Shown here piece after piece: positions 9,907 through 14,186 of a DNA stretch of 33,908 nt. The notes under the pieces are model-generated. The model did not search any database. It saw only the letters and a program-made list of their open reading frames with translations, and was not told the origin of the DNA. This DNA comes from Ignavibacteria bacterium (GTDB taxonomy: Bacteria > Bacteroidota > Ignavibacteria > Tepidaquicellales > OLB5), in contig JACSRQ010000201.1 in NCBI GenBank assembly GCA_014879675.1, forward strand, positions 1 to 33,908. Reading direction: 5' to 3'. Both the position numbers and the translations under genes were made by a program. Each line of letters begins with the position of its first letter. The stretch's first letter is position 1.

Positions 9907-11277
9907 TCAGTTTATTATTCCCAGGTCTGTTCCAATTGCTCTTCGTAAAAAATATGTTGCGTTGCCGTTACCGTTCATTCTGTTGAGCGGTAATGATAAA
10001 AATATAACTTTGGGATTAACTGCGGCATCCTTAATACAAACAGTAAGCTGCCCGGGGTCATATGGCGGATTGAAAGGTATCCTGTAAACTACAGAGGCAC
10101 TCGATCCGTACTTAATGCCGCGAACAGCATCAGGAGCGGGGGAGCCCGCTTCAAGCAGCGGATAAGTGTTATCTATTACCACTATCTGTGTTTGAAACGG
10201 CATGTTCGCCTGAAAACTTGTAACGCTATCAACCGGCGCGAAATTAATTATACTGCCTTGCTGATCAATAGCATTCGGGAAACCGGTGGAAAAGAAAACC
10301 TTGCCGCCGGAAACCAGGTAAAACGGAAGTGTCTGCTGCGCCAGATCAAAATTTGCATTATCTGCGGCGGCATTACCCCGGTTTGCATACCATACTACAC
10401 ATTGAAAAAGCTTAAGTGTTTCAGTGAACATCGATACTATCTTCGGCAAATTGGCGCCGCCTGACGTTTTTATATCAAGCTTGCTGTACAGACCAAAGGA
10501 ATCAAGCGCGTTTTGGTAAAATGTTGCGGCTGCGCCGTTATCAAGTATAGAGCTGGGGTAATCATCAATTAACAATATTCTCCCCTTAGGTTCCCTCACA
10601 TACCATGTATCTGTGCTATCTGGCATGGTAACTACAGGGCTGAACGTGCCGGCAATATCTTTAACTTTCAGATATAACTTGTTGTTTGAGTTTGGTACAA
10701 GTCCGTTGTTCTGCCTTAAAGTAAGCGAGCTAACAGTAGAAGAAAGCTCATTCCAGTTGTTTGTATCATTTAACGCCCAGTAATAATTACTTATCGAGTT
10801 ATCTCCATCAGGGTCACTGCCTGTCCACGAAAATATTCCGACCGTAAATGAAGTATCCGGTATCTCCGTACCCGGATTAAATATCACACTTGGAGGAGAA
10901 TTAAATACTGGATACAGATTTGTGGCCGGCGTAGGATCAATATTTCCTTTATCATCAACAGCAGCTACCCAGAATCTGAAAGTACTGTCATTGCCAACTA
11001 TCACAAGCTGGAACGTGCTATCGTTTCCTTCGCTATAAGTCCAGTTGGTACTATCGAACGAGAACCTGTAGCCTGCGATCAGACCATCGGGATCATCGCC
11101 CCACCATGTAATTTTTATCCTGGTAATATGCGGCGAGATAATACTATCCGGGTATAATGTTAAATGTGTCTCCGGGGCATAGTCTGTAACAAGCCCTTCA
11201 GGCACGTCAGTGCAATTGTACAAAGTTACTGCACACATTAAAAGCAAAACGTAATATTTTATTAGTCTGATCTTCAT
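9907..11277 (-). CDS. Hypothetical lipoprotein with fibronectin-like domains (ORF track begins at 11292; ATG at 11277 preferred)
   Basis: MKIRLIKYYVLLLMCAVTLYNC lipobox; upstream ggggag as possible RBS before ATG at 11277; FN3-like segments. Confidence 0.7.
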   Translation of the reverse strand: MKIRLIKYYVLLLMCAVTLYNCTDVPEGLVTDYAPETHLTLYPDSIISPHITRIKITWWGDDPDGLIAGYRFSFDSTNWTYSEGNDSTFQLVIVGNDSTFRFWVAAVDDKGNIDPTPATNLYPVFNSPPSVIFNPGTEIPDTSFTVGIFSWTGSDPDGDNSISNYYWALNDTNNWNELSSTVSSLTLRQNNGLVPNSNNKLYLKVKDIAGTFSPVVTMPDSTDTWYVREPKGRILLIDDYPSSILDNGAAATFYQNALDSFGLYSKLDIKTSGGANLPKIVSMFTETLKLFQCVVWYANRGNAAADNANFDLAQQTLPFYLVSGGKVFFSTGFPNAIDQQGSIINFAPVDSVTSFQANMPFQTQIVVIDNTYPLLEAGSPAPDAVRGIKYGSSASVVYRIPFNPPYDPGQLTVCIKDAAVNPKVIFLSLPLNRMNGNGNATYFLRRAIGTDLGIIN

Positions 11278-11333
11278 TTTATTTCTCCCCAATCAATAGG
11301 GGATTCAACTCTTTTTTTTGCATTGCAGATTCT

Positions 11334-11380
11334 AATTCCCCTCTAGAGAGGGGTGCCGGCTTTAGCCGGTGGGGTGTGTC
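11334..11380 (+). repeat. Double-hairpin palindromic element, left copy flanking DUF559 gene
   Basis: AATT CCCCTCTAGAGAGGGG T GCCGGC-TTTA-GCCGGT GGGGTGTGTC read directly. Confidence 0.85.
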
Positions 11381-11736
11381 CATTGATCCATTCCATTAAT
11401 ATGATCAACAATACTTGTCAAATTCTGTTTTACATCACCATCATAATATCTCAAAACATTTAAGCCAAGTTTCTCCAGTTCTGTTTGTCTTATCTTATCT
11501 TCATTATACTTATCATTATGTGAGCATCCATCGATCTCAATTACCAGATCAAGCTCGTTACAATAAAAATCAACAATGTATTCGAGAACTGGCTTCTGTC
11601 TGTGGAAATCAAATCCAAGCTTTTTTCCTTTCAGCTCATTCCACAGCAATACTTCTGATAGTATCCTTTGCTTCCTTAACTTCTTAGCAAGCTCTTTGAG
11701 CCTGGGGTTATACGGAGTGATTTTTCTTCTTTCCAT
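11362..11736 (-). CDS. DUF559-type endonuclease domain protein (PD-(D/E)XK/Vsr-like fold); ATG at 11736
   Basis: LRKQRILSEVLLWNELKGKKLGFDFHRQKPVLEYIVDFYCNELDLVIEIDGCSHND...LEKLGLNVLRY is diagnostic of DUF559. The ORF-track start at 11751 is TTG within the flanking repeat. Confidence 0.88.
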   Translation of the reverse strand: MERRKITPYNPRLKELAKKLRKQRILSEVLLWNELKGKKLGFDFHRQKPVLEYIVDFYCNELDLVIEIDGCSHNDKYNEDKIRQTELEKLGLNVLRYYDGDVKQNLTSIVDHINGMDQWTHPTG

Positions 11737-11740
11737 TAAC

Positions 11741-11799
11741 ACTCCCCTCAACTGATGTCTTACCAGACATCAGTTTCTTCCCCTCTCAAGAGGGGAATT
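11741..11799 (-). repeat. Double-hairpin palindromic element, right copy, inverted relative to 11334-11380
   Basis: On minus strand: AATT CCCCTCTTGAGAGGGG aaga AACTGATGTCT-ggta-AGACATCAGTT GAGGGGAGT; perfect 11-bp stem. Confidence 0.85.
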
Positions 11800-11820
11800 A
11801 TCTATTTCCAAAACATCGTC

Positions 11821-14073
11821 TTATTTTACCAATACCATTTTCTTAACATCCCTGAAGCTGTTGCCTTCAATGGTTTTTGCTTCAAGAACATAAATATACA
11901 TTCCGCTTGCGAGATCCTGACCGTCAAACCTGATCTCATGTCTGCCCATATTCTGCATACCGTTTACAAGCGTTTTAACTTCCTGGCCAAGCAGGTTGAA
12001 TATCTTAACTGATACTTCTGACTCAACCGGAAGGTTATAAACTATGTTGGTAACCGGGTTAAACGGATTTGGATAATTCTGTTTCAGCCAGAACTGAGTT
12101 GCGATCTCTGAAACAGGGCTTACGCCAATTACATTTCCGAAATCTGCATTGGTTCTGGGAACCATTTTGTATTTACCGAAAGCATAATACAAAACTCCTT
12201 GTATCGAACCAATACCATCCCACTTCCAAAGCAGGCTACCGGGTAATCCGGTGTTGTAGTAATTAGCTCCTGCGGGATTCCATCCGTTCACTTTATTATG
12301 ATTTCCGTCCTGAAGCTCGATTCTTGATTCTACATTCTCGCCCGGATATACTACAAGTATCTCACCGAAATTCCTTCTGAAAGATGTATCAGGAACAGGG
12401 AATTCGCTTGTACAGCCTGATGTTGATGGTGCATTTACACATGATATCACACACTGGTTCGCGAATCTTACGAGTACGCTTTCCCATTTCTCTGCAGTTG
12501 TATCGCCATCAACTTTGTTATCAGCAAGTACAGCGGGTGTCAGAATTTCGAATGAGGGAATTGTACCCGTGCCAAGATTCTGAATATCGCCAGGTGTTGC
12601 AATTATGAGTCTTGTCATTCCGTTGGTTTCACTAACGGTACCTCTTACTCTAACCCTGGTTCCTTTTACAAGCGGATCAGTTGCATTTCCATCGATCCAG
12701 ATACCGCTCCATCCGCCGGCAATGCTGCCATCCTGGATGATCACTCTTCTGGGTGAGGTCTGCGTGCCGCCCGGTCCCGTAAAAGAGAATGCCGGAATAT
12801 CACTGGTATCGCATGTTACTATACCTTCAGTTGTAACATCATATCCGTTATAGGCTGAAAATCCGCCCATGTTGGGAGTGTACTGAATATCTTTAATTGT
12901 CATTGTGTCATTATTTCTTACATAGTAGAAATAAGTTGACTTGGATGTATCGGAAGGATTAAGCCTTACTGCTCCTGCATTATCCCTGGCTTTAATAAAA
13001 TACTCTACAAGTGTTCCAAGCGGCTGGGAGGGTAATGTTCCCGAAAATATATTGCCTGAAGGCGACATAGTAATCCGCTGGTACGCTCCTTTATTGATAC
13101 GGTAATAAAGCTGGCAGCTATCAACCGACATCAAGCCCGGTGAAAGTGTATCGGAAACTACAGCGTTGACCTGTACTGTGTTTGAGGGTTTTGGTACACC
13201 CGGTATCCTGTTTACACTGCTGATGAACGGTGGAGTGTTACCCAATGTAAGATCGTTCGGATATAATGGTACAATAACATAACCATAAAGTCCGCCGTTT
13301 GCATCTGCGTACGCACTGTTGATTATGACTCCGCGTATAGATGTTACAGTTGCACCGATCGAAGGCGGTGAGAAAACAGGGAATCCTGTATCGTTAGGAG
13401 CAACAGAGAAGAAGTTTGAAAAATCCCTTAAATATATTTTGTTTCCCTGTGCGTCAAGCAGTGACCTGATATTCCTTGCACCTAATGGACTCTGCGGTCC
13501 GATCGTAACATTGTTGATCTGAACATACATACCTTCGTACTTTTCGCCGCTCAAAAACTTTATTGTACCGAGTGAATCAAAATCGGATATATTCACTGTT
13601 AAAGGAGCAGGGCGTCTTTTAATTGTAGGAAGTTCTGTTACTATAAGTGTTGTATCAAGCGCTATCTGTGTTGAGCCCGATGAGAGGATATCGGGGAACT
13701 CGCCAACTATACCGGTTACTATAACTTTAGAACCCGTATCCAGTGTTGTGAACTGAGTATTTGCAGTAATGCTGCTCTGTCTTACAATGATGCCTCCATA
13801 TAATGCATTGGTGGTGTCCTGCAGGTACGCAGTTCTTGAAGTGGTTCCTCTTAACAGAACCCGGTTATCTATACCTGCTTTTACAAGCGGCGGAGCTACA
13901 ACTCTTGCAGTAAATGTAACTGTGTCACCGACCTTTAATGAACGGTCATGCCCGATAGCAAGTGAATCATTCGGAACGGTCTGTACTACCATTATGGTAG
14001 TTGTGTAAAGATAGTAGAAGCCTATAGCAAAGATCAAAACAAAGGCTGCAAGGTATGGTAGTACTCGTTTCAT
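11821..14073 (-). CDS. Secreted protein with OB-fold-like/FN3-like domains and T9SS type A-like C-terminal domain
   Basis: N-terminal hydrophobic segment; FWLKQNYPNPFNPVTNIVYNL...DVKKMVLVK C-terminus. Confidence 0.82.
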   Translation of the reverse strand: MKRVLPYLAAFVLIFAIGFYYLYTTTIMVVQTVPNDSLAIGHDRSLKVGDTVTFTARVVAPPLVKAGIDNRVLLRGTTSRTAYLQDTTNALYGGIIVRQSSITANTQFTTLDTGSKVIVTGIVGEFPDILSSGSTQIALDTTLIVTELPTIKRRPAPLTVNISDFDSLGTIKFLSGEKYEGMYVQINNVTIGPQSPLGARNIRSLLDAQGNKIYLRDFSNFFSVAPNDTGFPVFSPPSIGATVTSIRGVIINSAYADANGGLYGYVIVPLYPNDLTLGNTPPFISSVNRIPGVPKPSNTVQVNAVVSDTLSPGLMSVDSCQLYYRINKGAYQRITMSPSGNIFSGTLPSQPLGTLVEYFIKARDNAGAVRLNPSDTSKSTYFYYVRNNDTMTIKDIQYTPNMGGFSAYNGYDVTTEGIVTCDTSDIPAFSFTGPGGTQTSPRRVIIQDGSIAGGWSGIWIDGNATDPLVKGTRVRVRGTVSETNGMTRLIIATPGDIQNLGTGTIPSFEILTPAVLADNKVDGDTTAEKWESVLVRFANQCVISCVNAPSTSGCTSEFPVPDTSFRRNFGEILVVYPGENVESRIELQDGNHNKVNGWNPAGANYYNTGLPGSLLWKWDGIGSIQGVLYYAFGKYKMVPRTNADFGNVIGVSPVSEIATQFWLKQNYPNPFNPVTNIVYNLPVESEVSVKIFNLLGQEVKTLVNGMQNMGRHEIRFDGQDLASGMYIYVLEAKTIEGNSFRDVKKMVLVK

Positions 14074-14108: not shown

Positions 14109-14186
14109 AATTCCCCTCCTGCGTTTTGTGTTGTCCCGCCTTGGCGGGATGTGGGGTGTCACGCTTTAGCGTGAAGGGGTGTGTTA
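14109..14186 (+). repeat. Solo copy of the double-hairpin palindromic element (no internal gene)
   Basis: AATTCCCCTCC ... TCCCGCC-TT-GGCGGGA tGTGGGGTG TCACGC-TTTA-GCGTGA AGGGGTGTGTTA; overlaps the stop codon of the 16286..14184 gene. Confidence 0.8.

Follow-up and report, generated by a model that had tools for sequence, protein, structure and literature searches.

A DUF559 gene enclosed by inverted repeats

Within the window analysed here, a 33,908-nucleotide stretch of an Ignavibacteria bacterium genome (contig JACSRQ010000201.1), positions 11334–11799 form a 466-bp unit in which a DUF559 gene is flanked by inverted copies of one element. Both copies have the same layout, AATT followed by a CCCCTC/GAGGGG hairpin (hairpin 1), a second hairpin (hairpin 2) and then GGGG(T/A)GTGT. 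The left copy (11334–11379, plus strand) consists of AATT (11334–11337), hairpin 1 (CCCCTC-TAGA-GAGGGG, 11338–11353), hairpin 2 (GCCGGC-TTTA-GCCGGT, 11355–11370) and a G-rich third strand (GGGGTGTGT, 11371–11379). The right copy (11739–11799) reads in the same order on the minus strand, with AATT at 11799–11796, hairpin 1 (CCCCTC-TTGA-GAGGGG) at 11795–11780, hairpin 2 (AACTGATGTC-TGGTAA-GACATCAGTT) at 11775–11750 and the third strand (GGGGAGTGT) at 11747–11739. The outer 21-nt arms of the unit are 95% complementary. Gene and repeats interlock: the 124-aa DUF559 frame runs on the minus strand from 11736 to 11362 (PF04480, E = 2.3e-27), the left copy encodes WTHPTG, the C-terminus of the protein, and the TAA stop (11364–11362) lies within the TTTA loop of left-copy hairpin 2. 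An earlier sequence-only reading of the locus had described exactly this layout, including the stop codon in the hairpin loop and the origin of WTHPTG, but had placed the ATG 4 nt after the right copy; the actual distance is 2 nt from GGGGAGTGT.

The two neighbouring genes share the minus strand with the DUF559 gene. One (11821–14073) encodes a surface protein with a type IX sorting domain (Por_Secre_tail, E = 6.4e-10), and the other (9907–11292) is a 461-aa open reading frame with no Pfam match; the reading had placed the unit between two co-directional surface-protein genes. A degenerate third copy of the element (AATTCCCCTCCTGCG ... AAGGGGTGTGT; 14109–14184, plus strand) lies in the next intergenic region.

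The DUF559 protein matches PF04480 with 95.5 bits (cut-off 20.6) and retains all of the family-invariant residues (E, RQ, DF, ExDG, H, D, R). The folds closest to its AlphaFold2 model (mean pLDDT 87.5; plasmid-collection sequences left out of the input) are 3hrl, a gonococcal protein that itself matches the DUF559 profile, 3r3p, the homing endonuclease I-Bth0305I, and Vsr; the YcjD profile also matched Vsr in earlier work (PMC1189080). By Pfam match and modelled fold the protein is a Vsr-type PD-(D/E)XK nuclease; it is not an HUH enzyme. For a defence role, PADLOC returned only weak matches.

That the closest fold match outside DUF559 is a homing endonuclease favours the main rival to the explanation developed below, a homing-type parasite for which the repeat is the cut site: the gene would invade repeats by break-induced gene conversion, and the repeats themselves would both originate and spread by replication slippage or recombination. 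The setting differs from that of both fold relatives, however, because the gene is intergenic, with no mismatch-repair context, no intron or intein context and no Rfam match in 11200–11950.

A dispersed repeat with a predicted triplex fold

In the 3.79-Mb window genome, CCCCTC-loop-GAGGGG-spacer-GGGGTGT is found 31 times and the reversed pattern not once, so the copies exceed chance. Across 13 genomes of the genus, copy number ranges from 2 to 32 each, again with none for the reversed pattern. Solo copies are sharp-ended: AATT precedes CCCCTC, GTT trails GGGGTGT, the information content beyond these is near zero, and the flanks of different copies are unrelated to one another. Hairpin 2 varies in sequence and keeps its pairing: among 103 distinct elements, 95 have a stem of 4 bp or more (92 of these stems being distinct), compared with 57% when halves were exchanged between elements. 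Its loops are strand-specific (GAA 29 versus TTC 1; TTTA 18 versus TAAA 0), as is the loop of hairpin 1 (TTGA 53 versus TCAA 3); the GNA preference is less marked (17 versus 4) when all DUF559-linked elements are taken together. GNA loops closed by C-G form extraordinarily stable DNA mini-hairpins (PMC4686876), and because the loops are both strand-specific and of a kind that is stable in DNA, they suggest that the G-rich strand folds as DNA.

The tail of the element, GGGGTGTG, mirrors the G-arm GAGAGGGG, T standing where the arm has A; BoxC/PIT/TM and other class II intrastrand triplexes are described by the same rule (PMC4666352). In the window, AGAGGGG would pair by mirror with GGGGTGT in the left copy and with GGGGAGT in the right copy, over 7 triplets each. 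Both copies follow the BoxC/PIT/TM arm rule (a pyrimidine arm, a purine arm and a mirror third strand, with G on G and A or T on A), and the wider family shares with that class dispersed copies, inverted pairs of two loop types and strain-variable presence and absence. They differ in the second loop, which is 17 or 32 nt long and contains the covarying hairpin 2, against the 1–6 nt covered by the published search (Holder et al. 2015; PMC4666352), and further in the intragenic position of some copies and in the link to a nuclease gene. The window family therefore fits, by its arm rule, as a variant of the BoxC/PIT/TM class outside the published set, with a predicted triplex fold. The earliest descriptions of such triplex repeats date from the 1990s, and they are known from more than 260 genomes (PMC4666352).

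Near DUF559 genes in general, third strands of at least 8 triplets accompany 38% of 454 C/G hairpins, compared with 8% when a direct-repeat rule replaced the mirror rule and 10% when arms were swapped between elements; at least 9 triplets are found in 27% versus 3–4% in the controls. The enrichment thus requires both the mirror rule and the element's own arm. Motifs with 7 or more triplets are present at 104 of 150 DUF559 loci and at 38 of 1,901 control positions.

DUF559 genes lie near repeats in many phyla

The window genome has five other DUF559 matches, four of which have hairpin repeats of their own nearby, and the DUF559 genes of its relatives do likewise. A 6-protein alignment served for the locus scan. 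Loci from many phyla were examined with an element grammar written after viewing loci of the class and of a plasmid collection; by this grammar, an element lies within 300 nt of 123 of 150 DUF559 genes and of 39 of 641 other open reading frames at the same loci, and on both sides of 66 of 150 and 6 of 641, respectively. About a fifth of the DUF559 loci have no element by this grammar. At the 80 GTDB loci, which had been fetched by protein alone and were uninspected beforehand, 68 had an element within 300 nt and 37 had one on both sides. A motif-free test compared the upstream flank with the reverse-complemented downstream flank and used sliding controls on the same locus; 37 of the 58 loci of the class and 43 of the 75 multi-phylum loci outscored all their controls. 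At the loci of this test the flanking copies are not always inverted, and many are direct. DUF559 genes are thus far closer to the repeats than random genes are, which was the comparison on which the earlier suggestion of a linked element was to stand or fall. Relatives that have the gene but lack the repeats would also have spoken against it; in G003 and G012, where the gene occupies the next-door intergenic site, it is likewise accompanied by repeats. The earlier interpretation is supported in part: its core, the pairing of DUF559 with hairpins in a compact element, withstood both comparisons, with the amendment that the repeat goes beyond two hairpins and fits BoxC/PIT/TM.

Repeat-associated DUF559 genes occur in, for example, E. 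coli, Sinorhizobium, Azospirillum, Sphingomonas, Neisseria, Synechocystis and Deinococcus; a phage search gave only 2 DUF559 matches. GAGAGGG-...-AGGGTGAGGG repeats are common to E. coli, S. meliloti and Azospirillum. The repeat beside the E. coli gene, which from its position we take to be ycjD, has the BoxC/PIT/TM form, and in the E. coli record recognisable copies lie solely downstream of the gene. Several S. meliloti repeats form inverted doublets whose spacing is a constant 107 bp, and the DUF559 genes of S. meliloti and Sinorhizobium lie between paired inverted copies, which may correspond to the rhizobial RIME1 repeat. An apparent K101/C101 length difference in Sinorhizobium was spurious and came from the joining of BLAST pieces.

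G/C-rich hairpins between co-directional genes could also be ordinary terminators or RNA structures, or the pattern could be an artefact of composition. The same-locus controls of the motif-free test and the 39 of 641 other open reading frames speak against this, as do the lack of an Rfam match at the locus, the GNA and TTTA loops, which are of DNA type and not RNA type, and the in-frame copies inside genes described below. BoxC/PIT, moreover, had neither promoter nor terminator activity in earlier tests (PMC4666352), and we regard this explanation as hardly credible.

Cognate pairing of nuclease and repeat

Within the genus, similarity between DUF559 proteins predicts similarity between the repeats in their flanks (rho 0.32; the 60 nt next to the gene were removed on each side before comparison). 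Shuffling genes within genomes gave a mean of 0.04, and none of 2,000 shuffles reached the observed value. Across genera the correlation is 0.22, against a permutation maximum of 0.10; a control with reversed sequences showed no correlation within the genus and a weak one (0.09) across genera. Among 286 genomes of the class outside the genus, a close DUF559 relative (at least 100 bits) is present in 11 of the 19 that carry the strict window element and in 31 of the 267 others (p = 6e-6). Gene and repeat therefore travel together. Pairing alone is no proof of catalysis, since it is also expected if the two merely travel together, and that the DUF559 protein recognises, cuts or spreads its repeat is what we infer.

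Gene-bearing and gene-free states of homologous sites

The surface-protein gene at 11821–14073, of which nine other genomes of the genus carry an orthologue, served, with the start region of the 461-aa frame on the other side as second anchor, for comparing sites in relatives. In the window genome its 3′ site holds the full unit. The same site has only a palindrome, AATTCCCCTC-NNNN-GAGGGGAATT, in G012 (L283) and G008 (L286), with a similar, imperfect one in G002 (L281), a single element in G009, G004 and G003, and no window-family element in G005, G010 and G011. At its 5′ site, full DUF559 units are found in G012 and G003, a single element in G004 and remnants in the window genome (14109–14184) and G002; the remaining orthologue loci of the genus have no window-family element there. 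Because hairpin 1 is itself palindromic and recombination between the two outer copies would leave just such a sequence, the lone palindrome could be a deletion product as well as a target.

In E. coli, BoxC is polymorphic at recA–recX, trpS–yhfZ and yhfS–frlR, where the flanks differ too, so that no insertion junction or target duplication can be read. At trpS–yhfZ (L249, L330, L331, L333), one strain has BoxC, another an unrelated sequence and the others neither. Neither at the window locus in relatives nor at these E. coli polymorphisms did we find a clean empty site or a target-site duplication. The search for empty sites in close relatives that the sequence-only reading had proposed thus yielded gene-bearing and gene-free states at homologous sites and no clean junction; set against a classical transposon, the unit shows presence and absence at homologous sites, with junctions that are not clean.

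These states bear on the homing-type parasite, for which the lone palindromes of G012 and G008 could be uncut targets. Window-type elements are, in addition, abundant in two genomes in which no close DUF559 relative of the window gene was found (40 copies in G023 and 9 in G290), which would suit repeats that persist independently of the gene; these copies are either relics or the work of another mobiliser. Against homing, the palindrome could equally be a deletion product between two palindromic hairpin-1 copies, and the sharp ends and unrelated flanks of solo elements call for a mobiliser of the repeat itself. Together with the genomic setting described above, we consider homing possible though rather unlikely.

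A caretaker role, in which DUF559 resolves or repairs folded repeats that are tolerated only near or with the resolving enzyme, would agree with the fold relation to the repair nuclease Vsr and with the reported link of TM repeats with genome instability (PMC4666352). VsrA, a DUF559 protein of Caulobacter, triggers the SOS response upon methyltransferase loss, so members of the family can damage DNA in vivo (PMC12907096). Such a role explains neither the bracketing of the gene at many unrelated loci nor the gene-bearing and gene-free states of homologous sites, and we judge it improbable.

Relation to REP/RAYT and other repeat systems

The unit resembles REP/RAYT systems ('REPtrons') in its short, structured and dispersed repeats, in a small nuclease-type gene bracketed by copies and in having a cognate repeat for each gene family. 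This architecture, a bracketed nuclease gene with cognate repeats elsewhere, is general for DUF559. The nuclease is of the PD-(D/E)XK type in place of HUH/Y1, however, and a triplex motif replaces the GTAG-tagged palindrome. Y1 (IS200/RAYT) transposase genes of the genus are unlinked to the element, which occurs at 0 of their 27 loci, the general grammar fitting 1 of 27. By analogy, the DUF559 unit would work like REP/RAYT without being a member; the earlier term 'RAYT-like' thus holds for the architecture and fails for the protein and for the Y1 genes of the genus.

The same counts bear on the possibility that another transposase, IS200/RAYT or otherwise, moves the repeats and carries DUF559 genes along as passengers. 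Y1 transposases are present in 12 of 13 genomes of the genus, which would provide such an agent, but besides the absence of linkage at the Y1 loci, the pairing of repeats is specific to the DUF559 subfamily and the surroundings of TM sites in E. coli yielded no mobility gene in an earlier study (Holder et al. 2015; PMC4666352). We regard passenger transport as very improbable.

CGTC-tagged REPs are said to lack a dedicated transposase (Di Nocera et al. 2013; PMC3733652). Some hairpin-2 copies of the window family read CGTC ... CCA on the opposite strand, whereas the window's own copies have no CGTC head, and the CGTC-REP form (CGTC head, 8–9-bp stem, CCA tail) is not enriched, with 3 of 150 DUF559 loci against 15 of 1,560 control positions.

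A proposed mechanism of spread

The observations are that DUF559 genes and repeats are associated and cognately paired, that copies are dispersed, that homologous sites show turnover and that loops of DNA type occur on one strand. From these we take DUF559 and its repeat to be a cognate selfish unit that resembles a REPtron, the spread of which would be catalysed by the nuclease. Our preferred reading of the 466-bp unit, held with moderate confidence, is a minimal selfish element in which a DUF559 nuclease gene is bracketed by inverted copies of its own intrastrand-triplex repeat. The Vsr/homing-endonuclease fold and the unlinked Y1 transposases also favour it. The DUF559 loci that have no element by the grammar, the direct flanking copies, the element-rich genomes G023 and G290 and the failure to find a clean empty site or target-site duplication count against it. 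We suggest that the G-rich strand, once single-stranded, for example at a replication fork, folds; that the DUF559 protein binds the folded G-strand and nicks it at the foot of the fold; and that the element, with or without the gene, is then copied or inserted elsewhere in the course of repair or recombination. A PD-(D/E)XK nuclease would thereby take the place of the HUH transposase in a REP/RAYT-style pair.

In open-access papers, bioRxiv excluded, we found no report linking DUF559 (COG2852/PF04480) to repeats or transposition. The DUF559 enzyme is the best candidate yet for the agent that spreads BoxC/PIT/TM-type repeats. More tentatively, DUF559 nucleases could make up a mobile-element enzyme class of a new kind, in which a single PD-(D/E)XK protein recognises an intrastrand DNA triplex, whether or not a hairpin is added to it, and in this way spreads BoxC/PIT-type repeats, often with its own gene, across phyla, including E. 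coli DUF559 with BoxC. Two long-standing unknowns, the agent of the BoxC/PIT/TM repeats and the role of the widespread DUF559 family, would then explain each other; the cognate pairing seen across phyla offers a substrate on which the enzyme can be tested and, for the repeats, an agent that can be tested in turn. Should this be borne out, the pair would amount to a transposon-like system in which a PD-(D/E)XK nuclease acts with a signal of three-stranded DNA.

Element copies within genes and arrays

The element also occurs in frame inside genes of the window genome (L010, L020, L021, L024, L025 and L027). The in-gene copies lie within type IX secretion sorting domains, where they read FxIP-LSRGVSEGRGV-xLxVYD, and related genes have no insert; they recall the palindromic elements within Rickettsia genes. 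Gene conversion between sorting domains is a possible route for the spread of these copies. DUF559 domains also appear in very long open frames (about 880–910 codons) full of repeats (L001, L065, L071, L073 and others), which are probably read-through of repeat arrays. A different arrangement is seen in G154 (C5:102829–103079), where three tandem element copies with CCCCTCTATAGAGGGG are spaced about 104 bp apart.
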